Part shown: positions 15,651-57,412 of the stretch, one piece after another
Position numbering within the stretch: position 1 is the stretch's first letter
How the letters are laid out: every line of letters begins with the position of its first letter
Assembly (NCBI GenBank): GCA_004321915.1
Contig: SCQE01000081.1
Coordinates: 62,001-126,000, forward strand
Direction of reading: 5' to 3'
Length of the DNA stretch: 64,000 bases
Origin: Nitrospirota bacterium
GTDB taxonomy: Bacteria; Nitrospirota; Thermodesulfovibrionia; Thermodesulfovibrionales; Dissulfurispiraceae
Made by a program: the position numbers and the translations under genes
The notes under the pieces: model-generated
Told to the model about the DNA's origin: nothing
Seen by the model: the letters and a program-made list of their open reading frames with translations, nothing else
Database searches by the model: none

Positions 15651-16433
15651 TTAAGCAACCGCCTCCCTGAGATGTTTTATAAAATCCCTTGCCCCTTCAG
15701 GGTCTTCGTGCAGCTTTTTTACTATAGCGCTGCCGACTATCACTCCGTCCGCCACGCCCGCGATAGTCCGAGCATCGTCAGGCGTTGAAACACCGAAACC
15801 CACGGCAACCGGGGCTTTCGACGCCTGTTTCACTTTGTTGATATGATCGAGAAATGAGGCTTCAAGGGTGAGTTTAGTGCCTGTGATGCCCGTCATCGAG
15901 ACATAGTAGAGAAAACCGCTCGAAGCCGACGCAACTTTTTTTATCCTCTTATCGTTCGATGTCGGCGCTATCAGAAATATCGTGTCGAGGCCTGCCGCGC
16001 GGGAGAGCTTGATCAACCGGCCCGCTTCATCCGGCGGAAGGTCGGGGATTATGACTCCGTCGACACCTGCGTCTACGGCATCGCTTACGAATTTTTCTTC
16101 GCCGTATTTAAAAACAGGATTATAGTAGGTCATCAGTATCAAGGGTATTTCTGTCTGCGTTCTAACCTCACGCACAAATGAGATGACTTTCCTCAAGGTC
16201 ACACCCGCAGCCACCGCCCTTTCTGCAGCCATCTGTATCGTAGGCCCGTCTGCAAGCGGATCGGAAAACGGGACGCCGAGCTCGATTATATCAGCGCCGC
16301 ACTCTTCAAGCAGCGAGATGTATTGCCGTGTGCGCCCTATATCCGGATCGCCTGCCATAATGTACGGGATAAAGGCTTTTTTGCCCGAGGCCTTAAGCCT
16401 TGAAAAGGTTTTTGATATGCGGGTCTGTTTCAC
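15651..16433 (-). CDS. trpA: tryptophan synthase alpha subunit
   Basis: TrpA cleaves indole-3-glycerol phosphate and passes indole to TrpB. The catalytic Glu is in [20 protein letters not shown] (about residue 49) and Asp in [14 protein letters not shown] (about 128). The phosphate-binding [10 protein letters not shown] and [10 protein letters not shown] motifs are present. It is a 260-aa TIM barrel. The start overlaps the trpB stop by 4 bases (ATGA). Confidence 0.96.
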
Positions 16434-17623
16434 TGAAGATTTATCCCCCTGATTGCCGCGACCTGCTGAACATCTTTATCTCCTCTTCCCGAGAGGTTTA
16501 CGATGATTATTTTTTCTTTGTCCATTTGGGGAGCGAGTTTTACGGCTTCGGCAACGGCATGCGCTGATTCGAGCGCAGGAATGATGCCCTCGGTTTTTGA
16601 AAGCAGATCGAAGGCGGCCAAGGCCTCTTCATCGGTGGCGTACGTGTAACAGACCCTGCCTGCTTCTCTGAAAAATGCATGCTCAGGCCCTACCGATGCG
16701 TAATCCAGCCCTGCCGAGACCGAATGCGTGCCGAGTACATTTCCGTCCTCGTCCTGAAGCAGATAGCTTTTGGTCCCCTGAAGCACTCCGATGGAGCCGC
16801 CCGCAAAACGCGCAGCATGCTCGCCGCTCTCTATGCCTTTGCCTCCTGCCTCCACCCCGACCATCTTCACATCGCTTTCTATGAACTCATTAAACAGGCC
16901 CATCGCATTGCTGCCTCCGCCAACGCAGGCTATAAGACAATCAGGCATACGGCCCTCTGCCTTAAGGACCTGTTTTTTAGCTTCACTCCCGATTACCGAC
17001 TGAAAATCCCTTACGAGCATCGGGAACGGATGTGGCCCGAACACCGTGCCCATCACATAATGAGTATGGCGCACATTCGTGGTCCAATCCCGCAGCGCCT
17101 CGTTTATCGCGTCTTTCAAGGTCTTTGAACCGAGATTGACCTCGTTCACTTTTGCCCCTAACAGCTTCATTCTGAAAACATTCAAGGCCTGTCTTTTTAC
17201 ATCGACCGAGCCCATATATATTTCACATTCAAGCCCTGTGAGCGCGGCCCCGGTTGCGGTTGCGACTCCGTGCTGGCCTGCGCCGGTCTCGGCGATGACC
17301 CTGCTCTTGCCCATTTTTTTCGCGAGCAGCGCCTGACCGATGGCGTTGTTTATCTTGTGCGCGCCTGTATGCGCCAAGTCTTCCCTTTTGAGATAAATCT
17401 TGGCGCCTCCCAGATGCGCCGAAAGCCTTGCCGCAAAATAAAGCGGCGTGGGCCTGCCCACATAGGTCGCGCGGAGCTGGTCCAGCTCGTCCTTAAAAGC
17501 CTTGTCTTTTTTTGCGGCAGCGTAAGCCGCATCCAGCTCATCGAGTGCAGGGATAAGTGTTTCGGGCGCGAACCTGCCTCCGAATGGGCCGAAGTATCCG
17601 TTTTTATCTGGCTGTTTTTTGAT
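16430..17623 (-). CDS. trpB: tryptophan synthase beta subunit (apparent AUC start)
   Basis: TrpB condenses indole with serine. The PLP lysine is in [14 protein letters not shown], with GGGSNAMG and the C-terminal LSGRGDKD also present. No ATG, GTG or TTG exists in frame upstream of the conserved N-terminus; the frame is closed by a TAA about 13 codons before ATC 17623. That ATC has GGAGG six bases upstream and yields the family N-terminus [20 protein letters not shown] and a 397-aa protein, the usual TrpB length. GTG 17461 would delete about 54 conserved residues. I infer an AUC start, or a sequence error at that codon. Confidence 0.9.
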
Positions 17624-17661
17624 TTTGCGCCTCCGTGTTCTTTTGCTTACAAAAGAATGTT

Positions 17662-17667
17662 ATTATA
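17662..17667 (-). promoter_or_regulatory. candidate -10 box for the trpB operon
   Basis: A perfect TATAAT on the minus strand lies about 40 bases upstream of the trpB start in the divergent trpB/trpB2 intergenic region. No good -35 hexamer is visible, so an activator or attenuation control is possible. I saw no clear Trp leader peptide. Confidence 0.3.
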
Positions 17668-17741
17668 TCATATATTTGACCCTGAAATATTGATTTTGAA
17701 CGCTTTTAAAGGGCCATACAGAACATTTGAGGAGGCGGATA

Positions 17742-19094
17742 ATGCGGGAAACAAAAATAACGCTGAGTGAAAAAGAGATACCGAGACAGTGGTACAACAT
17801 CATGGCCGATATGCCGAACCTGCCGAAACCGCCGCTGCACCCCGGAACAAAGCAGCCTGTCGGCCCGGACGACCTGAGCGCAATATTCCCCATGTCTCTG
17901 ATAGAGCAGGAGGTCTCGACCCAGCGCTGGATAGACATACCTGAAGAGGTGCTCGAAATTTATACGCTCTGGAGGCCTGCGCCGCTTTATCGCGCAAAAA
18001 GGCTGGAAGCTGCCTTAAAAACCCCTGCGCGCATATATTACAAGTACGAGGGCGTAAGTCCTGCGGGCAGTCACAAACCGAACACCTCTATACCTCAAGC
18101 CTACTACAATAAAAAAGCGGGCACCAAAAGGATCGCAACAGAAACAGGAGCAGGCCAGTGGGGCTCGTCCATGGCGCTTGCAGGAAGCCTCTTCGGGCTG
18201 GATGTTACTGTTTACATGGTGCGCGTAAGTTATGATCAAAAACCATATAGGCGCATCGCTATGGAAACATGGGGCGCAACTGTCCATGCGAGCCCTTCAA
18301 ACATTACAAACTCCGGCCGCAAAATACTGGAGACCTCGCCCGACTGCCCCGGAAGCCTTGGTATGGCCATATCCGAAGCGGTTGAGGACGCCGCAACACA
18401 CAGCGACACCAACTATGCGCTCGGCTCGGTATTAAACCATGTAATGTTACATCAGACCGTCATCGGGCTCGAAGCGAAAAAACAACTCGAAATGGTGGGA
18501 GAGTATCCTGATGTAGTCATCGGCTGCTGCGGCGGCGGAAGCAATTTTGCAGGACTGAGCTTCCCGTTCGTACACGATAAGATAAACGGCAAACAGGTGC
18601 GGGCCATAGCCGTAGAACCGATCTCCTGCCCCACTCTCACAAAAGGCGAATTCAGATACGACTTCGGCGATACGGCAGGATTAACGCCGCTTATAATGAT
18701 GTACACGCTCGGACATGACTTCATGCCTCCCGGGATCCATGCAGGCGGCCTGCGCTATCACGGCGACTCTGCATTGGTTTCTCAACTATACAATGACAAA
18801 ATAATCGAGGCCAAGGCTTACGGCCAAACCTCGGTGTTTGAGGCTGCGCTCACCTTCTCCAAGAGCGAAGGAATAATCCCTGCGCCCGAAAGCTCGCACG
18901 CCATAAGGGCCGCTATAGACGAAGCTTTGGTGTGCAAAGAAGAGGGCAAAGAAAAATGCATACTCTTTAATCTAAGCGGCCACGGCTATCTTGATTTGAC
19001 CGCTTACGCCGATTATATGTCCGGCAAGCTTGTGGATTACGAATACCCGGAAGAGAAAATAAAAGAGTCTTTGGCAAAACTGCCTACAATCTAA
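17742..19094 (+). CDS. trpB2: TrpB2-type tryptophan synthase beta-like protein
   Basis: The start ATG 17742 follows GGAGG by six bases. At about 450 residues this is the longer TrpB2 form with an N-terminal extension ([24 protein letters not shown]). The PLP lysine is in [17 protein letters not shown], with [10 protein letters not shown] and the C-terminal LSGHGYLDL. TrpB2 enzymes do not need TrpA and can use serine or O-phosphoserine with free indole. The gene is divergent from trpBA and directly upstream of trpF, so the cell has two beta-type enzymes. Confidence 0.92.
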
Positions 19095-20589: not shown

Positions 20590-22551
20590 CTATGGATAAG
20601 GATAAAAACTGATGCCGAAACTCGAAATGAGAATATCTTGTGTTATAGTTCCAGTGCCTGTACCTTGAGTAAATCCATAAATATAGTTGGTTGCACCAGT
20701 TGCATTAAAACAATCTTTAACTGTTGGGGTAGTTGTAGGAGAGGCTGCAGTTTGAGATATGTTATTACAGGCAACGCAATCCACCCATGCCCTTATCCTC
20801 GAATCCCCTGTTCTTCCATTAATGCCGGTAGTACATTCCACATCATGATCGACTTCAACCCTAACCCTGTGAGTTAACTGCGTGTTATCTTCAAACCATA
20901 AGATACCATAAGTATTCCCAAAGGTGCATGCAGAATCAGTGCTTGTAGTATAAGTTGCATCAACAGAACAAGACGCATTGGTGACATTATCATGATTATT
21001 TCTCCGGTTTTTCACAATAGCTACATGGTTATAACTATTGTTGTTAACTGCCGCAGCACGGTCTGGATCAGCTCGTGTCGGTGCTACTGTCAAGTTTGGA
21101 TATGTATCGAATTCTACTGCAATAGTGTTTCCGGTCAAATTTCCGGAAGTAAGAGTGCCAGTATCATATCCCAAATAGGCTCCGGTGTCACCACAAACAT
21201 TTGTATCAGCGGTATCTTTAAGCGCAAAAGTAAACCCGTGCCCATAAGTTATGCTGTTGCCAGTATCAACTTTTAAGTTTTTAAACTCAAAGTATGCTTT
21301 CATTACTTTAGTGTCTAATCTATCACCTGTGGACGTATACCATATACACCCCCTCGAACTAAGCACATTATTCCCCAATGCAAGCGTATTATTCGTTGTA
21401 TCAGGTGAAACAGAGTTTGCGGTTGATACGCTTGCAGGTGTCGAAAAATTTGCCATATTATTTGCAAAGCTTACCTGCGAGCCCGCAGGCGCATAACTCC
21501 CGGCCGACACTGATGGATAAATAGTCAGTATAAACATCTTTTGTCCTATATTGTCATTTGTTCCTGTTGGATCGTTATTATCTCTAACAAAAAATGTGAG
21601 GCTATTGCTGCTGGATGATCCGGTAGGCGTTCCTGCTATCACGACATGTGTGGACCATGCAGACCATGAGCCCTCGGCAAGACCTTGGCAGTTCGTCGAA
21701 AACGGTATAGATACGGAATTATTATCGGAATAAGTAATACCCGAAGGAGCGCTTGCGCCCGTAGCGTTCTGGATACACCATCTATAGCCACCGGCATTAG
21801 GCACCCCTCCGTTAGGATAAACATTTATTGGGCCGTACGCCGAACCTATTTGTCCGAATGGAAGACTATCGTTGATTAGGCTCAACTGTGCCCCTGTGCA
21901 GTTGGCCTTGATACGAAGCTCGCTGAGGGTCACCCATTTTACGATGTCGTCGTAAGGCTCGTTTCGCGTGCCGCCGACATCGCCTGCGTAGTTGTCAACC
22001 TGCACGTTGGGATTATCGAGAGGCAGATATGTGTTGATTGTAACGACCCCGGCGCTAGTGCCCGCATCACCTGTCGGCCCTGCTGTCTGGTTGTTAAAGT
22101 TCGCACCACCGCTGAAGACTATAAACGCGACATTATCTATGTTTGTGGTGGTGCCTGTGGTAGCGTCAATTATGGCCAGCCTTAGGTTTGTGCTTTTTCT
22201 TCCACATATTCCGCCTTCGGCTGTCGTGGCGGTTTTATTGTCGTAAATATACCAGAACCGGTTCCCCCACGGATCGTTAGGATTGCGAAGCCCGGTCGGG
22301 AACTCCCCGGTATTTGGCAGACGCTGATTGCCCATTCCGAAGCTGATCACAGATTGGATCGCCCCTTCGAGATAGTCCTGTGCTTGTTTTATCTTTGCTC
22401 CCTTGAGCAGCGGGCCGACAACGCCTATTCCGAGCCCCATGATAATGCCGATTATGATGAGAACTATGGACAGTTCTATGAGGGTGAAGCCCTTGGCGTT
22501 CCGCAATGCATTATAATTGTTCACCCTATCGCTCCTTTTTTCAGCAACCAT
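20590..22551 (-). CDS. pilin-like surface protein with C-terminal L-type-lectin-like domain (653 aa)
   Basis: The N-terminus has a class III signal peptide, AKG^FTLIELSIVLIIIG, with the conserved Glu5 used in type IV pilins and type II pseudopilins. About 140 further residues form a pilin-like head. A cadherin/Ig-like stretch (VVIAGTPTGSSSSN) follows. From about residue 360 the sequence looks like an L-type lectin: VSFANNMANFS, HGFTFALKD, AVEFDTYPN, and FTQGTGTGT near the end. It should be exported, processed by a prepilin peptidase and displayed on a pilus or secretion pseudopilus as a carbohydrate-binding tip or shaft protein. Third gene of a three-gene run; the gap to the second gene is 98 bases. 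Confidence 0.8.
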   Translation of the reverse strand: MVAEKRSDRVNNYNALRNAKGFTLIELSIVLIIIGIIMGLGIGVVGPLLKGAKIKQAQDYLEGAIQSVISFGMGNQRLPNTGEFPTGLRNPNDPWGNRFWYIYDNKTATTAEGGICGRKSTNLRLAIIDATTGTTTNIDNVAFIVFSGGANFNNQTAGPTGDAGTSAGVVTINTYLPLDNPNVQVDNYAGDVGGTRNEPYDDIVKWVTLSELRIKANCTGAQLSLINDSLPFGQIGSAYGPINVYPNGGVPNAGGYRWCIQNATGASAPSGITYSDNNSVSIPFSTNCQGLAEGSWSAWSTHVVIAGTPTGSSSSNSLTFFVRDNNDPTGTNDNIGQKMFILTIYPSVSAGSYAPAGSQVSFANNMANFSTPASVSTANSVSPDTTNNTLALGNNVLSSRGCIWYTSTGDRLDTKVMKAYFEFKNLKVDTGNSITYGHGFTFALKDTADTNVCGDTGAYLGYDTGTLTSGNLTGNTIAVEFDTYPNLTVAPTRADPDRAAAVNNNSYNHVAIVKNRRNNHDNVTNASCSVDATYTTSTDSACTFGNTYGILWFEDNTQLTHRVRVEVDHDVECTTGINGRTGDSRIRAWVDCVACNNISQTAASPTTTPTVKDCFNATGATNYIYGFTQGTGTGTITQDILISSFGISFYPYP

Positions 22552-22649
22552 ATTGTTTCAACTCTTATTTTTAAAGAATATCAGAAGCTTAGGGGGATGT
22601 CAAAAACTTTTCTCCTCATGAAAACAGGTTTTGAAGGGATGTGTCGCGT

Positions 22650-25346
22650 TCACTGGAATGGAACATAATACACGGTGTTTTGTGCGCCTGCGCCGGCATT
22701 TCCTCCAATGACATACAAATAGCCGTTATTCACTATGCTCGTATGAGCGTAACGTGGTTTGGTGCCGCCGACATTAATGGATTGAGTTGTGCTCCATGCG
22801 CCTATAGTGCCGTTGTCGTTGGTTTTTGCATAGTACACCGTATCCTGAGCAAGGCCGTTGTTGCCGCCAATGATATATAAATAGCCGTTATTGACAACGC
22901 TGGTATGGTTATAACGTGCCTGAGCAGTGCCATTGTCGATTGCGGTTGTGGTTTGCCATCCTGTCGCATCAATAGAGCCGTCAGATTTTAGTTTTGCATA
23001 ATGCACAGTATTCCTGATGGTGCTTGTATTATCAACGCCTCCAATAACATACAAATAGCCATTGTTGACCACACTGGTATGAGCATAACGCTTCTGAGCA
23101 GTGCCATTGTCAATTGCAGTTGCGGTCTGCCATCCAGTTGGATCAATAGAGCCGTCAGATTTTAGCTTTGCATAATACACGGTGTTTTGCACATTGGTTG
23201 CATCCGCTCCGCCTATCACATACAGATACCCGTTGTTCACCACGCTCGCATGGTATCTGCGGGCGGCTGGAAGGGTAGTAGTTGAGGCCCATGTGCCGAA
23301 GGAACCGTTTGAATTTATCGGGGCATAATACACGGTGTTTTTGACAACGCCTGTATCATCAATTCCGCCGACAACATACAAATAGCCGTTGTTGACAACG
23401 CTCGTATGATTATAACGTTTGGTCCCCGCAGTTCCATTAATATAGTTCGGTGTTGTACTCCATGCGCCTATAGTGCCGTTGTCGTTGGTTTTTGCGTAGT
23501 ACACCGTATCCTGAGCAAGGCCGTTGTTGCCGCCGATGACATACAGGTAGCCGTTGTTGACAACGCTGGTATGATTATCGCGCGCCTGCGCAGTGCCGTT
23601 GTCAATTGCGGTCGTGGCGGTCCAACTTCCAACAGGGCCGTTTGTCTGCGTATAAAAGCCTGTCCCAAAATTCGAGATTGTTATATTGTCAACCGCTGTT
23701 GACGTGCCTTGTGTAAATCCGAATTTTACGTTGTCCATATTCGAAGACAAAGAATAACACCTCTTTATCAGGGGGGTTTGCGTATAATCGCTTGTAAGAT
23801 CATTGCAATCATTGCAGTCAACCCAAGCCCTGAGCAGCGCATAACGGCTTGTTGTAGAGTTGTTATCAAATGTATTACAGGCGCTGTCGTATCCGTTCCG
23901 CAACTCTATCCTTGCGCTATGGGTCTGGCCGTCTTCGAGCCAAGCGGCAGCGCTTGTGTAATAGCAGCCTTCATATGGGATGGCATTCAGAGGGGCAGGC
24001 CCTGCAGGACAGGCCGCATTAGGACTTGAATGCGTATTATTAGCCGCACCTACCGAAGCAATGTGATTATTGGCAGGGTCACTTTTATTATTAGAGGGGT
24101 TAGAAGTAGCATTATCCGAACGTGTATCGACCTCTACCGCAAGGCTGTTTGTCCCGATAGTGCCGTTAGCAAATCCCAAATCAGGGCCTGAATTTCCACA
24201 AACACTTGTGGCATTGCCCCCAGTCATTAAAGCAAAAGTGAAGCCGTCGCCAAAATCCGTGAAGCCGGTTTCGGTGTTGGCAAACTTGAAATTAAAATAT
24301 GCCCGCATGGTTTTTCCTAAAAGGGTCTTATTATCAGGGTACCAAGAGCAGCCTGCGGTAGAGAGTGCGCCGTTTCCAAGAACAAGCGCCTTTAATGCCG
24401 TGTCGACCACGACCCCGCTTCCGGTCTGCGAGAAACGTCCGATATTGCTTGCAAAACTTATTTGGGCTCCTTGTGGAGGCGTGCCGCATCTGACTTTCAA
24501 ATTGAATGTCTTTGACATAGTATTGACTGCCGTTGTCTGGTTGTCGCTTGCCTGAACAGTGACCAAATAAGAAGCTGCCCCGCTTGGGAGGGTGCCGGAT
24601 AGAACGCCGGTAGCATTATCAATTGTTAGCCATGCAGGTGGAGAGATTAAAGAGAAGCTGTAACCGCTTGGCACCACACCCGTTGCAAACGGCACCCCGC
24701 CTGCCGCATAAATAGTCGCTGAATATGTAGTGCCTGAAGAGTTGCAATCGGACAAATACGCATCCGGCAGGGAGCTGTTCAGTATCGCAAACCGCCCTCC
24801 TCCGGGGCCGTAACATCCGGCCTTGTTTTTTAGCTCTTCAAGAGTGATAACTTTGTAAAGGTCCGTGTTTTTTAAGGCACCGGTAAAAGTTGAATTGTCA
24901 TAAGGTCCCGATGTTCCTGTAACTGATGATTCCAAGGTAAAATCCGGCCCCTTGCTTAGCACCACAAATGCTATATAGACCCCATTGCCGTTATCATATA
25001 TGCCAGTGGTTGTTCTCCCGCAAAGACCACCTGTTGATATGCTTGTCATTGTGCCGTCGTACAAGTAAATCAAATCATTTCCCCAAGGGTCTTTTGAGTT
25101 TGAGACAATCGTTGGAAAGGTAGCCGCATCCGGCAAAGCCTTGTTTTGGATTGACCAGCCTATTATTGAGTTAACCGCTGAATCGAGCGAGAGGGTGGCT
25201 TGTTTGATCTTTTCGCTCTTTGCCCTTGATCCGACAATCCATATAGCCGCGCTAATGGTTGCGGTTAGGATTATCATGATGATAGCTGCCCATATAAGCA
25301 ACGAGCCTCTGTTGTTTGACAACAAAGAAAATCTAAACGGTTTCAT
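22650..25346 (-). CDS. pilin-like protein with lectin-like domain and six Kelch-like repeats (898 aa)
   Basis: The N-terminus (SLLSNNRG then SLLIWAAIIMIILTATISA) is a degenerate prepilin signal that lacks FTLIE and Glu5, so it may be a minor pilin-like component or a simple membrane anchor. The pilin-like head matches both neighbours (DPWGNDLIYLYD, GGLCGRTT). An Ig-like segment (LSGTLPSGAASYLVTVQA) precedes a lectin-like domain (ISFASNIGRFS, DGFTFALMT, LAVEVDTRS, FGFTQGTS). From about residue 575 to the C-terminus six repeats of about 50 residues carry HTSVVNNGYLYVIGG, a Kelch/beta-propeller signature. Second gene of the run. Confidence 0.8.
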   Translation of the reverse strand: MKPFRFSLLSNNRGSLLIWAAIIMIILTATISAAIWIVGSRAKSEKIKQATLSLDSAVNSIIGWSIQNKALPDAATFPTIVSNSKDPWGNDLIYLYDGTMTSISTGGLCGRTTTGIYDNGNGVYIAFVVLSKGPDFTLESSVTGTSGPYDNSTFTGALKNTDLYKVITLEELKNKAGCYGPGGGRFAILNSSLPDAYLSDCNSSGTTYSATIYAAGGVPFATGVVPSGYSFSLISPPAWLTIDNATGVLSGTLPSGAASYLVTVQASDNQTTAVNTMSKTFNLKVRCGTPPQGAQISFASNIGRFSQTGSGVVVDTALKALVLGNGALSTAGCSWYPDNKTLLGKTMRAYFNFKFANTETGFTDFGDGFTFALMTGGNATSVCGNSGPDLGFANGTIGTNSLAVEVDTRSDNATSNPSNNKSDPANNHIASVGAANNTHSSPNAACPAGPAPLNAIPYEGCYYTSAAAWLEDGQTHSARIELRNGYDSACNTFDNNSTTSRYALLRAWVDCNDCNDLTSDYTQTPLIKRCYSLSSNMDNVKFGFTQGTSTAVDNITISNFGTGFYTQTNGPVGSWTATTAIDNGTAQARDNHTSVVNNGYLYVIGGNNGLAQDTVYYAKTNDNGTIGAWSTTPNYINGTAGTKRYNHTSVVNNGYLYVVGGIDDTGVVKNTVYYAPINSNGSFGTWASTTTLPAARRYHASVVNNGYLYVIGGADATNVQNTVYYAKLKSDGSIDPTGWQTATAIDNGTAQKRYAHTSVVNNGYLYVIGGVDNTSTIRNTVHYAKLKSDGSIDATGWQTTTAIDNGTAQARYNHTSVVNNGYLYIIGGNNGLAQDTVYYAKTNDNGTIGAWSTTQSINVGGTKPRYAHTSIVNNGYLYVIGGNAGAGAQNTVYYVPFQ
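22664..23640 (-). repeat. six tandem Kelch-coding DNA repeats (~160-170 bp each)
   Basis: The 3' third of the gene is made of six repeats that are highly similar at the DNA level. Two of them, near 22790-22880 and 23450-23560, are almost identical over about 90 bases. This leaves the region open to recombination and repeat-number change. Confidence 0.7.
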
Positions 25347-25352
25347 TTTATG

Positions 25353-26366
25353 TTATGGCCCTACGGTCAGGACAAAAGATTTATTGTCATAGTTATTATT
25401 CACAGTACTACCGTCTCTAACAGCAAAAGTGATTATATGACTTCCGTTATCAGAAGTAGCACTGGGAGTTCCTGAAATAGTAACATTGTCGCAGGTGTTC
25501 CATGATCCACTTGCATTACAAGTATTTGGTGTTGTGGTCTTGGAAAGAGTGCCATTACAGGAAAAAACCAAACCGGGAGAGTTATTTAATGTTGAATTAT
25601 TATACCAACACCATTGATACGTGCTGGCCCCTGTGCCTCCGTCAGCATAAATCCGTGTTGAGTATGTGCTGCTTAAACTCGCAGAAGGCAAATCATTATT
25701 TATTATTTTCAACTGACCGCCCTGACATCCTATTTTAGTGCGAAGTTCGCTAAGCGTTACCCATTTAACGATATCGTCAAATGGTAAGTTACTGCCAGCA
25801 GGTATAGGTGTGTTGGGATTTTCGAGCGGACTATAGGCATATGCAGTTGAAAGCAAAGTAACTGTTTTGGAACCCGGATACTCGACACCTGAGCCGTTAT
25901 CAATGCCTGTTTGTTGAACCGAATAGCTCGCACCGCTGCTGAAAATAATAAAAGATACGTTATCTATGGTTTTTGTTCCGTTTATTGCGTCCACAATCTG
26001 CAAGCGCAGCTTTGTAGTCTTCCTACCGCAAATTCCTCCGGTAGTGGAATTTGCGGTGTCATTGTCATAAATGTAATACAGGGGTTGACCCCAAGGATCA
26101 TTTGGGTTGCGCAATAAGGGCGTAAATTCATCTGTTCCTGCATAAGACGGCAGCCTCTTATTTGTCATTCCAAAACTGACTACCGACTCAATGGCGTTAT
26201 CAAGATATCCCTCTGCCTGCTTGACCTTTGCGCCTTTAAGCGTGGGGCCCAACACACCAAGACCGAGACCCATAATTATCCCTATTATGATAAGCACAAT
26301 AGAAAGTTCGATCAGCGTGAACCCTTTTGTGTTTCTGAATCTCGCGATAGCTGAAAAGATATGCAT
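25353..26366 (-). CDS. type IV pilin-like protein (337 aa)
   Basis: It begins with a class III signal peptide, TKG^FTLIELSIVLIIIG, with Glu5 in place. The head domain has PLLRNPNDPWGQPLYYIYD and GGICGRKTTKLRL, which matches the N-terminal halves of the two downstream proteins. After about residue 235 there is one Ig-like segment (GTPSATSDNGSHIITFAVRD). There is no lectin or Kelch region, so it may be the main subunit or a shortened paralog. The next gene starts 6 bases after its stop, consistent with a single operon. Confidence 0.85.
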   Translation of the reverse strand: MHIFSAIARFRNTKGFTLIELSIVLIIIGIIMGLGLGVLGPTLKGAKVKQAEGYLDNAIESVVSFGMTNKRLPSYAGTDEFTPLLRNPNDPWGQPLYYIYDNDTANSTTGGICGRKTTKLRLQIVDAINGTKTIDNVSFIIFSSGASYSVQQTGIDNGSGVEYPGSKTVTLLSTAYAYSPLENPNTPIPAGSNLPFDDIVKWVTLSELRTKIGCQGGQLKIINNDLPSASLSSTYSTRIYADGGTGASTYQWCWYNNSTLNNSPGLVFSCNGTLSKTTTPNTCNASGSWNTCDNVTISGTPSATSDNGSHIITFAVRDGSTVNNNYDNKSFVLTVGP

Positions 26367-26451
26367 TTTGTTATTCCCCCCGCCTCTCTAAGATGCAGAC
26401 ATGATTACATTTTATAGCTTTTTATTAGGATAAGCAATATTTTGGGGGATA

Positions 26452-27501
26452 ATGATTTGCATATTGGCAACTCAGCGGCAACTTGGTTATTGTATAGACA
26501 TGATACATGCTTTTATCCGGGGCAACGGGAAGAACATCGTTCAATACATATACGCTGCGACTTTTATTTTGCTGTTCTTAATCCTGCCTCCTTTCGTTCA
26601 AGCCGGGGATGTGCCCCCAAACGCATATGCATACTTCGAAAGAGGGGTCTCCTATGCCGACAAAAAACAATATGACAAGGCGATTCAGGATTTCAGCAAT
26701 GCCGTCGAGTTAAGCCCATATTATGTCCGCGCTTATATCGAGAGGGGACGTGCCTATGCGGCTAAAGGGCTGCACGAAAAAGCGCTCGTGGATTTAAACA
26801 GGGCCTTGAGGCTTGAACCGAAAAACAGCGACGCATCCGCACTCAAAAAGTTTATAGAGGAACAGAAAAAGGAGTCCGAACAGGCAGCTGCCGCAGGGCC
26901 GCAGAATGCAAGGGCATACATCGAACGTGGGGTAGCGTACATAGAGAAGGGACAGCACGAAAAAGGCATTCGGGACCTGAACAGCGCGCTTAGGCTTGAG
27001 CCAAACAATGCCGACGCCCATGTTCTGAGAGGCATAGCTTACTCCGAAATGGAACAGTATGACAAAGCCATTTCTGATTTAAGCCGGGCCATCGAGCTTG
27101 AGCCCGACAATGCCTACGCTTATTTCAGCAGGGGCATGGGGTACTATTATTTGAAGAGCTTCCAAACGTCGCTGAAAGATTTAAGCAGGTCTATAGAACT
27201 GAACGGCAAAGATCCCAATGTGTATCTGCTTAGGGGAATGGTGATGGCAAGATTAGGAAGGGCCGGCGCGGGACTTGAGGACTTCCAAAAGAGCGAGGGT
27301 CTAAAGGGACGGAAAGATTATCAATATCACTACGGTCTTGCAGGTTTTTATGCGGTTCTCAACGACCCGTTCAAGGCCTGCGAACATCTATCCAAAAGCA
27401 TAGCGACCGGATACAAAGGCTTTGCCTCGATAAAAAAGGATTTCGATTTCGACAACATAAGGACCGAACCCTGTTACCTGCAGATAATGAAAGGGCGATA
27501 G
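26452..27501 (+). CDS. secreted or membrane-anchored TPR protein
   Basis: A hydrophobic segment (YAATFILLFLILPPFVQA) is followed by six tetratricopeptide repeats (residues about 55-310), each with the A-Y-x-x-R-G-x-A-Y and AL/AI-x-D-L-x-x-A pattern. The protein is probably periplasmic or anchored in the inner membrane and acts as a protein-protein scaffold. Divergent transcription from the pilin operon makes a role in pilus assembly possible, but nothing direct shows it. ATG 26500 is an alternative start that gives a cleaner signal peptide. Its stop codon lies in the left inverted repeat of the adjacent MITE. Confidence 0.75.
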   Translation: MICILATQRQLGYCIDMIHAFIRGNGKNIVQYIYAATFILLFLILPPFVQAGDVPPNAYAYFERGVSYADKKQYDKAIQDFSNAVELSPYYVRAYIERGRAYAAKGLHEKALVDLNRALRLEPKNSDASALKKFIEEQKKESEQAAAAGPQNARAYIERGVAYIEKGQHEKGIRDLNSALRLEPNNADAHVLRGIAYSEMEQYDKAISDLSRAIELEPDNAYAYFSRGMGYYYLKSFQTSLKDLSRSIELNGKDPNVYLLRGMVMARLGRAGAGLEDFQKSEGLKGRKDYQYHYGLAGFYAVLNDPFKACEHLSKSIATGYKGFASIKKDFDFDNIRTEPCYLQIMKGR

Positions 27502-42501: not shown

Positions 42502-42660
42502 ATGGCACAGAACGCAAAGAAGACCGAACATTCCGGGGCGAAGAAAGGCAACGGAGCTTATTGGGGCAGGAAAGTTGCGGCGAAAAAAGAGTCGAACAAA
42601 AAGCGGCGGGAGAATGACAAAACAAGCGTCACTGACGATTGCGAAGTGAGGATAAAATGA
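42502..42660 (+). CDS. small basic protein (52 aa) upstream of cas3
   Basis: ATG 42502 follows AAGAGGATTTGC and the ORF ends at TGA 42658-42660, which overlaps the cas3 start as ATGA. The product, MAQNAKKTEHSGAKKGNGAY..., is very rich in Lys/Arg and contains a HSGAKKGNGAYWGRK motif. Similar small proteins follow Bro-N antirepressors in mobile islands. It may bind nucleic acid. The overlap implies translational coupling with cas3. Confidence 0.55.
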   Translation: MAQNAKKTEHSGAKKGNGAYWGRKVAAKKESNKKRRENDKTSVTDDCEVRIK

Positions 42661-44849
42661 GCGAACCTATTGCACATATCACTGAAGACGGTAGAGAGCA
42701 CGGTCTTTATGAGCATCTGACCGGTACGGCTAAGATAGCTTCTGAGTTTGCGGCTGGATTCGGGTGTGGAGAATGGGGCTATCTAGCGGGGTTATGGCAT
42801 GACTTGGGGAAGTTCTCACCGGCGTTCCAGAAGAAAATACGCGCCGCCGCAGGTTCCGGTATAGAAGCACATATCGAAGCGAAGGCTCGTGTTGACCACT
42901 CAACAGCAGGCGCTATTTATTCAGTCGAGAAATGCAATGGAATCGGACGCATTTTAGCGTACCTATCAGCGGGACATCATGCTGGGCTGGCCGACTGGCA
43001 ATCTCATGAAACCGGTTTAAAAGCGCTTTCACAAAGGCTATTAAATAATTCTCTGCTTGACGATGCCCGACAAGGATCAGTCCCTGATGAAATTCTCAAT
43101 TATTCCCTGCCAACACAAAAACCCAAATCCGGCTCTGACCATGCCTTCTGGATTCGCATGCTTTTTTCATGCCTTGTGGATGCCGACTTTCTTGATACCG
43201 AAAAATTCTTTGATTCCAACAAATCAAAACTTCGCGGTAATTACCCCAACATTGATGAATTATTAAAAATGTTTACCGAGTATATGCAGGGGAAAAGCAG
43301 CACTGCACCTGACACGCCGGTCAATCGCATTCGGGCAAAAGTGCTTAAAAGGTGCCTATCTATAGCCTCAGAACCTTCAGGAACATATTCGCTGACAGTA
43401 CCTACAGGAGGAGGCAAGACACTGTCATCTATGGCTTTCGCACTCAATCATGCCGCAACTCACGGCAAAAAACGGATTATCTATGTAATCCCTTACACCA
43501 GCATTATTGAACAGTCGGCAGACCAGTTCAGGCAGATATTTGGCGAGACGATAATCGAGCACCACAGCAATGTTGACATTGAGGATGACTCCTTGGAGAC
43601 AGCCAAGTCCCGGCTTGCCTCGGAAAATTGGGACGCCCCTGTTATAGTCACAACATCAGTCCAGTTTTTTGAGTCTTTGTTTGCGTCACGCACCAGCAGA
43701 TGCCGCAAGTTGCACAACATTGCAAACAGTGTCGTAATACTTGATGAGGCTCAACTTCTGCCTCCAGATTTTTTGAAGCCGTCGCTGCACATTTTAAAAG
43801 AGCTTGTGAAGTTTTACGGGGTAACGCTTTTACTTTGTACTGCAACTCAACCGGCGCTCGGCAAACGGGAAGGCTTCAGTGAAGGGCTTGAAGGTGTAAC
43901 CGAAATAATAGAAGACCCAAGGGCGCTGCACGATTCCCTTAAACGCTTTAATATCCATGTGCCGGATAATCTTAACGAACCTTGCAGTTGGGAACCTCTT
44001 GCAGAAGAGCTTGTCGGTCATAAGTCTGTCCTCTGCATTGTAAACAGACGTGATGATGCAAGAGTGCTCTGGTCGCACATGCCGGAGGGAACTGTTCATC
44101 TTTCTGCCCTAATGTGCGGCGCTCATCGCTCAAAGGTGATAAGCGAAATAAAAGAACGGCTTACTGCGAAAGAACCTGTACGGCTGATAAGCACTCAACT
44201 GGTTGAGGCGGGTGTTGATATTGATTTTCCTGTTGTGTACCGTGCAATCGCCGGTCTTGACTCCATTGCGCAAGCCGCAGGCAGGTGTAACCGTGAGGGT
44301 TTAATAAGTAGCGGGAGCGTTCATGTTTTTATCCCGCCTAAAGATTCACCTCCCGGAATATTGAGGCAAACAGCAAATATCGGGCGTCGCTTGCTGATGA
44401 ACAAAGACAATGATCCTATCGCGCCTGCCCGGTTTGAGGAATTTTTTAGAGAATTATACTGGCTCAGGGGAGATCAACTCGACAGCAAAGGAATTCTGCT
44501 TGACCTTGCAGCTGACATGGAACTTCGTTTTAGTTTCAGAACTGCGGCCAGGAAATTTCAACTTATTGATGAAACTGCACAGGCATCTGTCATCGTCAGA
44601 TATGACGAGGGGAATAAGTATGTTGATATGCTTGACCGGATTGGCCCGGAGCGCTGGTTAATGAGAAAGCTGCAGCGATATGTTATTAATCTGCCGCGTT
44701 ATTTGCACACTAAACTGCTGGCGTCAGGAGCAATAAAGCAATGTTACCCGGGCATCTTCATTCAAAGCCATCCATCATTCTACGATGACAATCTGGGCTT
44801 CTGTCCTGACAGGTCTATAATTTATGAACCGGATGATTTAATAGCATGA
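42657..44849 (+). CDS. cas3: CRISPR-associated helicase/nuclease Cas3 (type I-C, HD fused)
   Basis: Cas3 is recruited by Cascade to nick and degrade target DNA. An N-terminal HD nuclease domain is visible (LWHDLGKFSPAFQKK, with STAGAIYS and SAGHHAGLADW). A superfamily 2 helicase follows with Walker A VPTGGGKTLSSMAFA (about residue 250), DEAQ-type motif II VVILDEAQLLP and motif VI QAAGRCNREG. Start ATG 42657 has GAGG upstream and gives a 730-aa protein. First cas gene. Confidence 0.95.
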   Translation: MSEPIAHITEDGREHGLYEHLTGTAKIASEFAAGFGCGEWGYLAGLWHDLGKFSPAFQKKIRAAAGSGIEAHIEAKARVDHSTAGAIYSVEKCNGIGRILAYLSAGHHAGLADWQSHETGLKALSQRLLNNSLLDDARQGSVPDEILNYSLPTQKPKSGSDHAFWIRMLFSCLVDADFLDTEKFFDSNKSKLRGNYPNIDELLKMFTEYMQGKSSTAPDTPVNRIRAKVLKRCLSIASEPSGTYSLTVPTGGGKTLSSMAFALNHAATHGKKRIIYVIPYTSIIEQSADQFRQIFGETIIEHHSNVDIEDDSLETAKSRLASENWDAPVIVTTSVQFFESLFASRTSRCRKLHNIANSVVILDEAQLLPPDFLKPSLHILKELVKFYGVTLLLCTATQPALGKREGFSEGLEGVTEIIEDPRALHDSLKRFNIHVPDNLNEPCSWEPLAEELVGHKSVLCIVNRRDDARVLWSHMPEGTVHLSALMCGAHRSKVISEIKERLTAKEPVRLISTQLVEAGVDIDFPVVYRAIAGLDSIAQAAGRCNREGLISSGSVHVFIPPKDSPPGILRQTANIGRRLLMNKDNDPIAPARFEEFFRELYWLRGDQLDSKGILLDLAADMELRFSFRTAARKFQLIDETAQASVIVRYDEGNKYVDMLDRIGPERWLMRKLQRYVINLPRYLHTKLLASGAIKQCYPGIFIQSHPSFYDDNLGFCPDRSIIYEPDDLIA

Positions 44850-44864
44850 AAAAGAGGAGGTCTT

Positions 44865-45515
44865 ATGTCTGACAATCAACGACGAAGTAGCGTGTTCAGA
44901 CTCAAGGTGTGGGGAGACAATGCCTGTTTCACAAGGCCGGAGATGAAGGTTGAGCGCGTATCATACGATGTGATGACGCCTTCTGCCGCACGCGGTATTC
45001 TGGAGGCCATACACTGGAAACCGGCCATCAGATGGCATATCACACAAATTGACGTGCTTAACCCTATCAAATGGACATCGGTGCGGCGCAACGAGGTCGG
45101 GATTAAGATGTCACCGTCATCAAAGCATATATTTGTCGAGAATCAGCGTCAGCAGAGGGCCGGGTTGCTTCTCCGTGATGTCGCGTATATCATTCACGCC
45201 TTCTTTGATATAACAGACAAGGCAGGGGCTGAGGACAATGTTATAAAACATCAGGAGATATTTCTTCGACGGGCACGCAAGGGGCAATGCTTTCACCGTC
45301 CATGCTTAGGCTGCCGTGAGTTTGCGGCTGACTTTGATGTGCTTGCCGACAATCAATCACTGCCTCAAACTATTGCTGAAACAAGAGATTTAGGCTGGAT
45401 GCTTTATGATCTCGATTTCAGCGGCAACGAGCCCAAGCCGCTTTTCTTTCGGGCATCACTGGCCACCGGCTCAATAAAAGTTCCAGCTTGGGGCAGCCCG
45501 GAGGTGCGTGGATGA
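44865..45515 (+). CDS. cas5c: Cas5c (Cas5d), crRNA-processing endonuclease of type I-C
   Basis: In type I-C, Cas5 replaces Cas6 as the pre-crRNA nuclease and then caps the crRNA 5' handle. The 216-aa protein begins with the Cas5 beta strand SSVFRLKVWGDNACFTRPE and contains the Csd-type YDVMTPSAARGILEAIHWKP and RRNEVG. The predicted crRNA tag would be the last bases of the repeat. The stop overlaps cas8c as ATGA. Confidence 0.94.
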   Translation: MSDNQRRSSVFRLKVWGDNACFTRPEMKVERVSYDVMTPSAARGILEAIHWKPAIRWHITQIDVLNPIKWTSVRRNEVGIKMSPSSKHIFVENQRQQRAGLLLRDVAYIIHAFFDITDKAGAEDNVIKHQEIFLRRARKGQCFHRPCLGCREFAADFDVLADNQSLPQTIAETRDLGWMLYDLDFSGNEPKPLFFRASLATGSIKVPAWGSPEVRG

Positions 45516-47242
45516 TACTTCAGGCACTTACAGAATATTATGCCAAGCGGCTTGAGCTTCCGGTCGGGTATCAAAAAAAAGATATACCATTCATTATTTC
45601 TCTAAATACATCAGGGCATTTTGTAAATCTGCTTGACACGAGAACGATTGAAGGCAAATCAAAACGCTCTCGCGTATGCCTTGTGCCCCGCGAAGTTAAA
45701 CGCTCCGGCAGTAAGGCTTGGGAGAAAGCAAATCTGCTTTGGGATACACCGGCTTATGTTGTTGGAGTTTCCAGCAAAGACACTGAAAATGCCGGTCGAA
45801 AACATGGGAGCTTCATAAAACGCTTTCATGAGACTTTTCCCAACCCATCATTTGATGAGGGAATAGCTGCGGTGTCAGCTTTTCTGTCTGGTAACTCTTT
45901 TGAACTATTAAAGGCTCATAGCACATGGGCTGAGGTGCTCGATACGGATGGCTATTTAACCTTTAAACTTGAAGGCGAAGAAGGTCTTGTATGCGAGAGA
46001 GTCTCTGTAAAAGAGCTTTTAAGCGATACAAAACAGTCGGATAAAAAAGCAAACCACGGCGTTTGCCTTGTCAGCGGAGATAATGACGAAATAGCCCAAT
46101 TACACAATGCCATCAAGGGGGTGCGCGGGGCTCAATCAACCGGTGCTAATATCGTGTCTTTTAATCTGTCTGCGTTTGAATCGTTCGGAAAAGGGCAGGG
46201 ATATAACGCACCTATTGGAAAGAAGGCAGAGTTTGCCTATGTTACCGCCCTTAATGGTCTCCTTGATAAAGATTCAAGGCAAAAGATTCAGGTCGGTGAT
46301 GCAACCACCGTTTTTTGGGCTGAGAAAGAACATCAGATAGAAAGCTGGTTCTCCGATTTCTTTGGAGAGCCGCCAAAGGGTCAGTCAGAACAGGACAATG
46401 CAACAATCAAGGCCCTGTTTGAAGCCCTTAAGACCGGTGCTCTGCCACTAATTAATGCCAAGACTTATTTCTATGTTCTCGGACTTGCGCCTAATGCCTC
46501 TCGCATAGCAATACGATTTTGGTATCAAGGGTCAGTCGGAGAAGTAGTCGAAAAAATCAAACAGCATTTTGAGGACATCTCTATAGTTCATGGGCCGAAA
46601 GATCCTGAGCATCTCTCACTGTTCCGCCTTCTTGTCTCAACAGCAGTTCAAGGGAAGTCAGAAAATATCCAGCCTAATCTTGCGGGCGAGTTCATGAAGA
46701 CAATACTCACAGGCACCCCGTATCCGCAGACCTTGTTAGCTGCTGCTATAAGGCGTATAAGGGCTGAGCGAGAGATAACCTATCCGCGTATTGCCTTGAT
46801 AAAAGGCGTTCTAACGAGGGAATCAAGATATTATGGAAACAATAAAAAGGAGGTTGGTATGTCATTGGACACGAGCAACACAAATCCCGGCTATCTGATG
46901 GGGAGGCTTTTTGCAGTTCTGGAGCGAGCGCAGGAGCTGGCGAGCCCCGGCATAAATGCAACAATCCGTGATCGTTTCTCCGGTGCGGCATCAAGCACAC
47001 CCGTTGCAGTCTTTCCGCATCTGATGAAGCTGAAGACGCACCACATTGCAAAAATCGAAAATAAGGGCACAGCAGTCAATCTGGAGAAGCTGATTCAAGA
47101 GATTATGGATAAGGTGGATTCATCAAATGCGTTTCCGCCTCATTTAGCCCTTGATAATCAAGGTCGTTTCTGGGTCGGCTATTACCACCAGCGGCAGTCA
47201 TTTTTTACAAAAAAATCTGATGACAATACAAAGGAGGCCTAA
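45512..47242 (+). CDS. cas8c: Cas8c (Csd1), large subunit of type I-C Cascade
   Basis: The large subunit recognises the PAM and recruits Cas3. Start ATG 45512 overlaps the cas5c stop and gives [16 protein letters not shown], the family N-terminus. The 576-aa length and internal text ([28 protein letters not shown]-like region, [16 protein letters not shown]) are typical. An internal start with its own Shine-Dalgarno at 46859 encodes Cas11c from the same frame. Confidence 0.94.
46859..47242 (+). CDS. cas11c: Cas11c, small subunit translated from an internal start within cas8c
   Basis: Inside cas8c an ATG at 46859 (codon 450, in frame) has a perfect GGAGG (46849-46853) five bases upstream. This would give a 127-aa helical protein ([20 protein letters not shown]...). 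Type I-C systems in Desulfovibrio are known to produce Cas11c in just this way, as two copies in Cascade that hold the non-target strand. The ribosome site has no other use within the coding sequence, so I consider it real. Confidence 0.8.
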
Positions 47243-47244
47243 CC

Positions 47245-48099
47245 ATGAGCACAATCAATAATCGTTATGACTTCGTTCTGCTTTTTGATGTAAAAGACGG
47301 AAATCCAAATGGAGACCCTGATGCCGGCAACCTGCCCCGTGTTGACCCTGAGACCGGCAATGGCCTTGTTACCGATGTCTGTATCAAGCGCAAGGTCAGG
47401 AATTATGTGCAACTGATGAACAAAGGAACTGGCTACGATATTTTTGTCAAAGAGAAAGCCATTCTTAACAATCTAATAGATGAAGCACATGAACAGGAGG
47501 ATGTTAAAAAGAAAGAAAAAGCTGACAAGACAGAAGCAGCAAGACAATTTATGTGCGGCAAGTACTTTGATGTGAGAACATTTGGGGCAGTGATGTCTAC
47601 CGGTAAAAATGCCGGCCAAGTTCGCGGGCCGGTGCAGTTTACTTTTGCGCGCAGTGTTGATCAGGTTGTGCCGCTTGAACACAGCATAACTCGTATGGCT
47701 GTCACTACGCCTGCCGAAGCTGAAAAGCAAGAAGGCGACAATAGAACAATGGGCCGCAAGTTCACTGTGCCCTATGGCCTATACCGTTGCCACGGTTTTA
47801 TCTCTGCTCCACTAGCGGCACAAACCGGTTTCAGCGAAAATGACCTGACGCTTTTCTGGGATGCCTTGAAAATGATGTTTGAGCACGACCACTCAGCAGC
47901 ACGGGGACAGATGGCAACCCGCAAGCTCATTGTCTTTAAGCACGATTCGGCAATGGGTAACCATCCTGCGCATGTTTTGTTTGACAAGGTGAAGATAGAA
48001 GCAAAGCAAAAGCCTGCGAGAGATTTCAGCGATTACTCGGTTGTCATGCCGTCACAGGCAGACATGCCGGACGGCGTTACTATGGAGGTAAAATTGTAG
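47245..48099 (+). CDS. cas7c: Cas7c (Csd2), crRNA-backbone subunit
   Basis: Cas7 forms the helical backbone along the crRNA spacer. The 284-aa protein starts [28 protein letters not shown], quoted by its signature [15 protein letters not shown], and has [12 protein letters not shown] and [14 protein letters not shown], all typical of Csd2. It starts 2 bases after cas8c with AAAGGAGG upstream. Confidence 0.95.
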
Positions 48100-48105
48100 A
48101 GCATT

Positions 48106-48738
48106 ATGTATAACGAGGATAATCTCATCCAGATTTCTTCACTGCAGCACTACGCCTTCTGCACCCGGCAGTGCGCTCTTATTCATATCGAGCAGGTCTG
48201 GAGCGAAAACGTTTTCACTGCAGAGGGTCGCATAATGCACGACAAGGCTGACAGCAACAAGTCCGAATCGCGCGGTAAGGTGCGCATAGACTACAGCGTT
48301 CCTCTGCGTTCACTCAGGCTTGGGCTTATCGGCAAGGCTGATGTAGTCGAGTTTCATCGGCAAGAGAGCGGAGCGTGGCTGCCGTTCCCGGTCGAATACA
48401 AGCGTGGTAAGCCTAAGGCTGGCAATTGCGACAGGGTGCAGCTTTGCGCTCAGGCTATTTGTCTTGAAGAAATGCTAAATGTTGAGATTAAGGAAGGAGC
48501 TCTTTTTTATGGACAGACGCGCCGTCGGGAAGATGTTGTCTTCAATAATGCATTGCGGCAAGAGACAGAGGAAACGGCAAAAAAGGTGCATGAACTTATT
48601 GAATCCGGCATCACACCGAAAGCTGAATATTCCAAGAAATGCGACAGTTGTTCGCTGCTCAGTTTGTGTATGCCAAAAACTTGCGGCAAAGCAAAGTCGG
48701 CGAGCAGATATTTGCTTGCAGCTATGAGGGATGAATGA
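48106..48738 (+). CDS. cas4: Cas4, RecB-family adaptation nuclease
   Basis: Cas4 trims pre-spacers and helps select the PAM end with Cas1-Cas2. The [4Fe-4S] ligands are FCTRQCALIH (first Cys, about residue 18) and the C-terminal CDSCSLLSLCMPKTC (about 185). The RecB nuclease core is seen in GKADVVEF, PVEYKRGKPK and QLCAQAICLEE. 210 aa. The stop overlaps cas1 as ATGA. Confidence 0.95.
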   Translation: MYNEDNLIQISSLQHYAFCTRQCALIHIEQVWSENVFTAEGRIMHDKADSNKSESRGKVRIDYSVPLRSLRLGLIGKADVVEFHRQESGAWLPFPVEYKRGKPKAGNCDRVQLCAQAICLEEMLNVEIKEGALFYGQTRRREDVVFNNALRQETEETAKKVHELIESGITPKAEYSKKCDSCSLLSLCMPKTCGKAKSASRYLLAAMRDE

Positions 48739-49766
48739 AAAAACTTCTTAATACCCTATTTGTCACAACGCAGGGCGCATATCTCGCCAAAGAGGGCGAA
48801 ACCGTTGCGGTCAAGATTGACGGAGAGATAGCAATGCGTGTGCCTATACATACGCTCGGCGGGGTCGTCTGCTTCGGGCAGGTGTCATGCAGCCCTTATT
48901 TGATGGGCTTCTGCGCGGAGAATGGCGTAGCGGTGAGCTTTCTTACCGAAAACGGCCGATTTCTTGCAAAAGTTCAGGGGCCGGTGTCGGGCAATGTTTT
49001 GCTCAGGCGTGAGCAGTACCGCCGCGCCGATGATTTGAAATCTTCAGCATTGATTGCTCGCTCTGTGCTTACTGGTAAAATTGCAAATTGCCGGACAGTG
49101 CTGCAGAGAGCATTAAGAGACCATTCTGAAAAGCTCGATGCAGACGCAGTTACATCAGCTTCGCAGTGCCTTGTAAATTCTTTAAGAAGATTGCAGGTTG
49201 AGTCGCCGCTCGATTATGTGCGCGGAATAGAAGGGGATGCGGCAAACTCTTATTTCGGGGTGTTCGACAATCTGATAACTTCACAAAAAGATGATTTCAC
49301 TTTCAATGAGCGCAACCGCAGGCCTCCTTTGGATAACGTCAATTGCCTGCTTTCATTCCTCTATACGCTTTTGATGCATGATGTGCGGTCGGCGCTTGAA
49401 TCCGTGGGTCTTGATCCGGCAGTCGGATTTTTCCACAGAGACCGTCCGGGACGATACAGTCTTGCGCTCGACATAATGGAAGAGTTCAGGCCGTTTTTTG
49501 CCGACCGTCTGGGTCTTTCGTTGATAAATCTCTGTCAGGTGCAGGGCAAGGGGTTCAACAAAAAAGAATCTGGCGCGGTATGGATGGATGACGATACCCG
49601 AAAGACGGTGCTCGTTGCTTATCAAAAACGAAAACAGGAGGAGCTTGAACATCCGTTCATAAAGGAAAAGGTTGCGATTGGGCTTATCCCGTATGTGCAG
49701 GCGTTGTTGATGGCTCGTTACATACGGGGAGACCTTGATTGTTATCCACCGTTTATATGGAAGTAA
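48735..49766 (+). CDS. cas1: Cas1, integrase of the type I-C adaptation complex
   Basis: Cas1 inserts new spacers at the leader-repeat junction. The 343-aa protein has LFVTTQGAYLAKEG at the N-terminus, the catalytic Glu in the GIEGDAANSYFGVF helix (about residue 157), His in HRDRPGRYSLALDIMEEFRP (about 235) and a downstream Asp/Glu in the same stretch. Between it and cas2 a GIY-YIG gene is inserted. Confidence 0.95.
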   Translation: MKKLLNTLFVTTQGAYLAKEGETVAVKIDGEIAMRVPIHTLGGVVCFGQVSCSPYLMGFCAENGVAVSFLTENGRFLAKVQGPVSGNVLLRREQYRRADDLKSSALIARSVLTGKIANCRTVLQRALRDHSEKLDADAVTSASQCLVNSLRRLQVESPLDYVRGIEGDAANSYFGVFDNLITSQKDDFTFNERNRRPPLDNVNCLLSFLYTLLMHDVRSALESVGLDPAVGFFHRDRPGRYSLALDIMEEFRPFFADRLGLSLINLCQVQGKGFNKKESGAVWMDDDTRKTVLVAYQKRKQEELEHPFIKEKVAIGLIPYVQALLMARYIRGDLDCYPPFIWK

Positions 49767-49794
49767 TGATAGGATAAAATTACTGATGGGTTAT

Positions 49795-49825
49795 CGTCAT
49801 TCCACGGCTTGACCGGGGAATCCAG
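49795..49825. repeat. inverted repeat, left arm, before the GIY-YIG gene
   Basis: CGTCATTCCACGGCTTGACC...AATCCAG matches the reverse complement of 50121-50151 at 26 of 31 positions. The same 31-bp core is present inside the MITE at 27579-27609. Confidence 0.65.
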
Positions 49826-49831
49826 ACACAT

Positions 49832-50149
49832 ATGTCAAAGAGCTTTTATGTATACATATTAGCGAGCCGAAGGAATGGTACTTTGTACATTGGAGTCACC
49901 TCAGACCTCATAAAACGGATATGGGAACATAGGAATAAACTGGCGAAAGGATTTACAGAAAAATATGGCATAGATAAGCTTGTCTACTATGAGCAGTTTA
50001 TGGACGCTGAAAATGCCATAGGAAGAGAAAAAAGATTGAAGAAATATAATCGCAAATGGAAACTTGATCTTATTGAAAGTGTGAATCCGGCGTGGAATGA
50101 TTTGTATGATGAACTGCTAGCTGGATTCCCCGATCAAGTCGGAGAATGA
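49832..50149 (+). CDS. GIY-YIG nuclease family protein (URI-type), inserted between cas1 and cas2
   Basis: The 105-aa protein is one GIY-YIG domain: FYVYILASRRNGTLYIGVTS with the catalytic Arg in LIKRIWEHRN and a downstream Glu in YYEQF / DAENAIGREKRLKKY. This resembles the small single-domain UvrC/URI nucleases that are common and poorly characterised. The gene is not a normal cas component. It is bracketed by inverted repeats, and the last codons (LLAGFPDQVGE) are encoded by the right arm, so the repeat and gene appear to form one unit. Confidence 0.88.
   Translation: MSKSFYVYILASRRNGTLYIGVTSDLIKRIWEHRNKLAKGFTEKYGIDKLVYYEQFMDAENAIGREKRLKKYNRKWKLDLIESVNPAWNDLYDELLAGFPDQVGE

Positions 50150-50659: not shown

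Positions 50660-57412
<6,753 letters not shown>

Follow-up and report, generated by a model that had tools for sequence, protein, structure and literature searches.

Three neighbouring genes, here called A, B and C, each encode a protein that begins like a type IV pilin and, in B and C, continues into large additional modules, which raises the question of what filament, if any, these proteins belong to and what the added modules would do there. The reading favored in this study is that all three are probably minor pilins of an MSHA-type pilus, with B as a tip cap that lacks Glu5 and carries a lectin and a propeller, A as its partner, and C as a duplicate of A with a lectin. This reading draws on observed domains, folds, the Glu5 pattern, paralogy, gene linkage and co-occurrence.

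The window, meaning the whole stretch of 64,000 nucleotides that was analysed (G000:C143:62001-126000), comes from a 3.63-Mb genome of 145 contigs. According to the ORF listing of the window, A, B and C are exact ORFs lying head to tail, separated by 6 bp (A/B) and 98 bp (B/C), all on the reverse strand (Table 1). A promoter and terminator scan of the cassette region returned signals no better than those of shuffled sequences, Rfam gave no match there, and PHROGs gave weak N-terminal matches alone, to families of unknown function. The TPR gene upstream, at 26452-27501 (+), was weighed as a candidate MshN or PilW and set aside, being divergently transcribed, matching MshN as a generic TPR protein and staying below the pilus-specific curated cut-offs. 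Elsewhere in the window, two different tryptophan synthase beta-like genes stand adjacent and divergent at 16430-19094 (343 aa on the minus strand, 455 aa on the plus strand), and 42639-53350 holds a type I-C-like CRISPR-Cas locus (cas3, cas5, cas8, cas7, cas4 and cas1, assigned by eye) with an array of about 43 repeats, GTCGCGCCCCGCGCGGGCGCGTGGATTGAAAC, after the cas genes.

Table 1. Features of the A-B-C cassette, in window positions (aa, residues of the encoded protein).
Feature	Position	Strand	Description	Evidence
Ribosome-binding-like stretch	26376..26386	-	Purine-rich, GAGGCGGGGGG, upstream of gene A's ATG	
Gene A	25353..26366	-	337 aa; class III signal, pilin, Ig-like domain, no further module	PF07963, 28.0 bits
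A He_PIG-like Ig domain	25356..25715	-	About aa 218-337	Inferred from homologues with PF05345
Gene B	22650..25346	-	898 aa; Glu5-less pilin, Ig-like domain, L-type lectin, six-bladed Kelch propeller	Domain searches, AlphaFold, fold comparison
B hydrophobic N-terminal segment	25242..25304	-	S-L-L-I-W after NNRG	Alignment; AlphaFold helix 12-68
B pilin module	24807..25346	-	aa 1-180	Stalk HMM 1e-37, AlphaFold model
B Ig-like domain	24477..24794	-	About aa 185-290	Alignment, stalk HMM, beta strands in model
B L-type (legume) lectin	23649..24458	-	aa 297-566	Alignment, lectin profile, 7elv TM 0.73
B six Kelch blades	22653..23645	-	aa 568-898	Kelch_1; LZTR1 Kelch Z 28
Tandem copies inside Kelch blades	22863..23180	.	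174-bp unit, sign of internal duplication	84% match
Gene C	20590..22551	-	653 aa; Glu5 pilin, Ig-like domain, L-type lectin	Domain searches, AlphaFold, fold comparison
C Ig-like domain	21514..21885	-	About aa 223-346	Alignment, stalk HMM
C L-type lectin	20593..21483	-	aa 357-653	PF00139 31.2 bits; VIA-align Z 20.0 to 7elv

The N-terminal parts of the three proteins are homologous, with 50% identity between A and C and about 31-32% for A/B and B/C in alignment. The initial annotation had described a common pilin-like half at which A stops; the common half stands, but it is in fact a pilin followed by an Ig-like domain of the He_PIG type (about 290-350 residues, hereafter the stalk), and A continues into that second domain. 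Its assignment follows from homologues that exceed the PF05345 cut-off at the aligned position. The N-methylation motif PF07963 was matched above the Pfam cut-off of 21.2 by A (28.0 bits) and C (27.2 bits), and the N-terminus of A, KG/FTLIE, is a canonical class III signal with Glu5. The N-terminus of B reads NNRG/SLLIWAAIIM, with Trp instead of Glu at position 5 and Gly preceding the hydrophobic segment, and a Pfam scan of B gave no PF07963 match; B thus does lack FTLIE and Glu5, as had been noted at the outset. Despite the missing motif, the stalk of B is homologous to that of A (stalk HMM, 1e-37). A PDB sequence search with C alone as the query returned only geopilin N-termini, at E 0.001.

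Beyond the stalk, C carries only a lectin, in agreement with its first description: Lectin_legB PF00139 was matched at 31.2 bits (cut-off 26.3), and an AlphaFold model of C (25 sequences, mean pLDDT 75.3) has legume lectins as its best fold matches, with a VIA-align Z of 20.0 to 7elv. The lectin of B was not detected by Pfam alone; it is 39% identical to that of C in alignment, and the B model matches the archaeal legume lectin 7elv with a Foldseek TM of 0.73. Additionally, a profile of four family lectins retrieved legume lectins of the PDB (pea, Pterocarpus) with a best E of 3.8e-5. Legume lectins bind metal through Glu-x-Asp, Asp-Pro and His residues, and the corresponding E, D, DP and H do not vary among the four lectin domains aligned, reading LAVEVDT..DP..NH in B and IAVEFDT..DP..NH in C; the alignment gave no assignable calcium Asn. 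In the carbohydrate loop, B (FGDGFTF) and two relatives retain the Asp, which is His in C (YGHGFTF), so sugar binding by C may be altered or lost.

The second added module of B consists of six Kelch stretches (Kelch_1 E 5e-25) that form six regular blades over aa 597-873 with a spacing of 52-58 aa. The AlphaFold model of B (22 sequences, mean pLDDT 76.8, pTM 0.45) shows a long N-terminal helix, beta domains and a propeller, the last matching the Kelch domain of LZTR1 with a target-normalised Foldseek TM of 0.77 and a VIA-align Z of 28.2 over 293 residues at 2.9 A. Unrelated six-bladed propellers such as sialidases also reach Z 25-27 against this model; the fold is therefore clear, and its identity as Kelch rests on sequence. 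Structure prediction had been set beforehand as the refuting test for the description of B as a lectin followed by six Kelch-like blades, and both folds were recovered. The alignments behind the B and C models are shallow (22-25 sequences, mean pLDDT 75-77), the placement of domains relative to each other is unreliable at pTM 0.45-0.54, and the VIA-align match lists are filled by the propeller and lectin, with the pilin and Ig parts barely covered. Blades 1 and 5 have long identical stretches, which suggests recent duplication or gene conversion.

The search for this architecture in other genomes, proposed with the initial annotation, found the stalk family at 59 loci; the whole pilin-lectin-Kelch query was covered, among 230 genomes of the class, only in the source genome (G000) and its sister G001. 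Among the relatives searched, none showed a clear C. This narrow distribution, together with the His in the lectin loop of C and the internal duplication in the Kelch blades, would agree with C, the Kelch module or both being additions to a known pilus tip complex that are decaying or have no function. That explanation is nonetheless very improbable, as the ORFs are long and intact, the Kelch motif is retained in every one of the six blades in both species, whose blade sequences differ, and the metal-site residues are conserved in both lectins.

The stalk family as a whole is present in 26 of 100 related genomes, and the 59 loci, obtained from a stalk-profile search of genome contigs with genes called by a simple ORF picker, are labelled Nitrospirota, Deltaproteobacteria, Aquificota, a few Campylobacterota and others. 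A recurrent order in these relatives is a small KGQDL-type pilin followed by A and then B; most relatives have this pilin adjacent, but the cassette of G000 has none beside it. A-B pairs occur at 19 loci, which represent at most 18 distinct pairs because L116 and L121 have B proteins that look almost the same. Glu5 is present in A at all 18 paired loci with a readable N-terminus and missing from B at 18 of the 19, where the homologues have P, I, Y, F, T or N, so that the loss seen in B is conserved across phyla. The only B retaining Glu5, read by eye, is L066:8372-10078 (GFSSVEIFF), which makes this protein a natural test of the Glu5 hypothesis.

In the stalk tree, all B proteins fall on one side and all A proteins on the other, with a clustering of labels far beyond that of shuffles and weak basal support for the split (74/68). 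A and B thus represent separate stalk lineages over Nitrospirota, Thermodesulfobacteriota, Myxococcota and Pseudomonadota. C groups as sister to the A pair of the genus (support 100/99), which makes it a copy of A particular to this lineage rather than a truncated B. Additional modules vary among relatives: L-type lectins recur, for example in members from Persephonella (L119), Geobacter (L116) and G008 (L061), and in other B proteins the added domains are of the LamG-type lectin, PKD or InlB type. A C-terminal domain of about 95 residues (..RVWN.G...DFRI...C...NG.EIT...Y.A...DTNGDCQVNF...TDR) is conserved on many A- and B-type pilins, for example L064:7728-8996, L073:8113-9969, L069:1415-5026 and L111:11517-14387; it gave no Pfam match in the members scanned, nearly all of its matches are on stalk-family proteins, and it is absent from A, B and C of the window. 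At a gammaproteobacterial MSHA-type locus (L151:5710-8199), a Glu5-less prepilin-like protein of 519 aa (GYALLMLMVVL) directly precedes an A-like pilin, and the pairing of Glu5-plus and Glu5-minus proteins may thus extend to classical MSHA loci.

The pairing also bears on whether these proteins belong to a filament at all. Cleaved prepilin-like proteins could be kept in the inner membrane or periplasm, or be released, and act there as adhesins or sensors; the missing Glu5 of B and the size of its extra modules, which would make a bulky subunit unfit for a filament shaft, fit such a role. Glu5 loss combined with a Glu5-bearing partner is, however, the tip-initiating pattern (PMC9934059), a large module fits at a tip, and the A-B pair is conserved in pilin operons, all of which make a role outside any filament improbable and favor the minor pilin reading.

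As to which filament, the initial annotation had found no pilus machinery nearby and had suggested a shared system. The former is true within the window; about 14 kb beyond it, on the same contig and 35 kb from the cassette, lies an MSHA-type cluster (about C143:37.9-48.0 kb), and this specific candidate can replace the general notion of a shared system. The cluster comprises MshI-, J-, K-, L-, E-, G-, M- and N-like genes and a lytic transglycosylase-like gene. Its secretin (C143:41.1-42.0 kb) matches MshL TIGR02519 at 266.3 bits (cut-off 250.2), and its MshE-like ATPase has the c-di-GMP motif NF053729 at 55.5 bits (cut-off 38); the MshM-like gene, of which only part was covered, is recognised by AAA and SH3_3 domains and position alone. 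The sister genome has a similar spacing, with MshI at C21:86 kb and the cassette at 126-129 kb. In relatives the pilin genes are found inside or beside such clusters: mshI/L/E/G-like genes occur in 42 of the 59 loci, within at most about 9 kb on each side, where MshE or MshG matches alone could belong to other type IV systems; the MshL assignments in the related genomes come from a formal test. Across the 100 genomes, MshI or MshL was detected in 25 of 26 genomes with the stalk family vs. 9 of 74 without it (Fisher 5e-15), and at the genus level MshI was present in 15/15 vs. 4/50, collapse by genus being the sole correction for phylogeny in these co-occurrence tests.

The genome also encodes other type IV filament machineries, namely several PilB/PilT-like ATPases and a T2SS-like cluster that includes pseudopilins of its own, and A, B and C could be subunits of one of these (a T2SS pseudopilus or a PilB/PilT pilus). 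B is like GspK in missing Glu5, and pilins can be interchangeable among filaments. We nevertheless consider this alternative unlikely, given that the family tracks MshI/MshL and not GspD, that 10 of the 26 family genomes are without GspD, that the relatives' genes lie inside or beside msh-type clusters, and that the T2SS cluster has a pilin set of its own. GspD, used as the control, was found in 16/26 family genomes vs. 63/74 without the family, and a T2SS origin is thus unsupported by co-occurrence.

For an MSHA-type pilus, the following model is proposed for the tip position, assembly order, ligand binding, regulation and use of the distant machinery. Glu5 ordinarily forms a pair with the N-terminus of the adjacent subunit, and a subunit without it enters the filament first and ends at the tip (PMC9934059). 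The initiating cap is therefore the role that fits B best; as a K-type (GspK/PilX-like) subunit, B would display its legume-type lectin and six-bladed Kelch propeller at the tip. A, bearing Glu5, would join B to the filament, and C would add a further lectin subunit close to the tip; since C gained its own lectin, the propeller could be accompanied by two different lectins in the tip complex. The small KGQDL-type pilin is the likely shaft subunit in relatives. The pilus would be built by the MSHA-type machinery 35 kb away, and its extension would probably be gated by c-di-GMP via the MshE-like ATPase, a control that is plausible here because c-di-GMP-bound MshE drives MSHA extension in V. cholerae (PMC7096442). 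The displayed modules may bind glycans or proteins on surfaces, matrix or partner cells. Points against this reading are the distance between cassette and machinery, the lack of an adjacent KGQDL-type pilin, the Glu5 of the L066 protein, the His in the loop of C, the shallow models, the 74/68 split and the presence of other filament systems.

A wider proposal, to which we give about an even chance, is that B-type Glu5-less modular pilins are a widespread class of MSHA-type tip proteins in which the initiating cap itself carries the adhesin, accompanied by an A-type partner across phyla and missed by surveys based on the N-methylation motif, and that this genus added a Kelch propeller and a second lectin pilin. 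The findings tie a large set of unnamed pilins of Nitrospirota, Thermodesulfobacteriota and Aquificota to MSHA-type pili and give them a testable role. They also suggest that the Glu5-less initiating subunit can itself be the base on which a tip adhesin is built, in which case searches by motif would miss part of the pilus adhesins. Should this hold, the cassette would help to foresee which MSHA-type pili bind glycans and at which point new modules for binding are exchanged.

Fusion of a pilin to a lectin and a propeller had been called unusual at the outset, yet modular pilins, including the order pilin-Ig-ConA lectin, have already been published (PMC8179133, PMC9934059). According to the main text of the survey by Raynaud et al. 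2021 (PMC8179133), over 1,200 such proteins fall into 264 architectures, with He_PIG (PF05345) and ConA-type lectin among the frequent additions. C (lectin) and B (lectin and Kelch) resemble them in joining a pilin module to C-terminal domains that are not pilus domains. As described there, the survey required the N-terminal IPR012902 motif; because B lacks the N-methylation motif by the Pfam model, B-type proteins would have been missed, and the main text makes no mention of Kelch. A literature search for a link between Kelch and pilus found nothing relevant. The propeller of PilY1/PilC adhesins at the type IV pilus tip provides an analogy to B, although PilY1 is not a pilin, its propeller is of a different family, and a Pfam search of B for the PilY1 C-terminal domain gave no Neisseria_PilC-type match (E up to 1).

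Likenesses are also found in minor pilins. In S. sanguinis, PilC has the order pilin-Ig-ConA lectin with proven glycan binding, and the PilABC tip complex includes a Glu5-less pilin, PilA; the tip-capping role of K subunits is a further precedent (PMC9934059). The order of modules in PilC is that of C and of the first part of B, a likeness of architecture; the S. sanguinis pilus is that of a monoderm and not MSHA-type. K-type minor pilins (GspK, PilX/PilK and TcpB-like initiators) are like B in lacking Glu5, in being encoded with other pilins and in being larger than their partners, whereas the extra module of B is C-terminal (Ig, lectin and propeller) and that of GspK is an inserted alpha domain. 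Vibrio and Shewanella MSHA systems share with this locus a machinery like MshL, MshE, MshG, MshI, MshM and MshN that includes the c-di-GMP motif, and also a large putative adhesin subunit encoded with the system, MshQ being the putative MSHA adhesin (PMC7096442). In S. sanguinis it is a pilin with Glu5 that carries the lectin, and PilA, which lacks Glu5, is small. What differs here is that the Glu5-less subunit itself bears the adhesive modules, that a Kelch propeller has been added to the lectin, and that the set belongs with MSHA-type loci.
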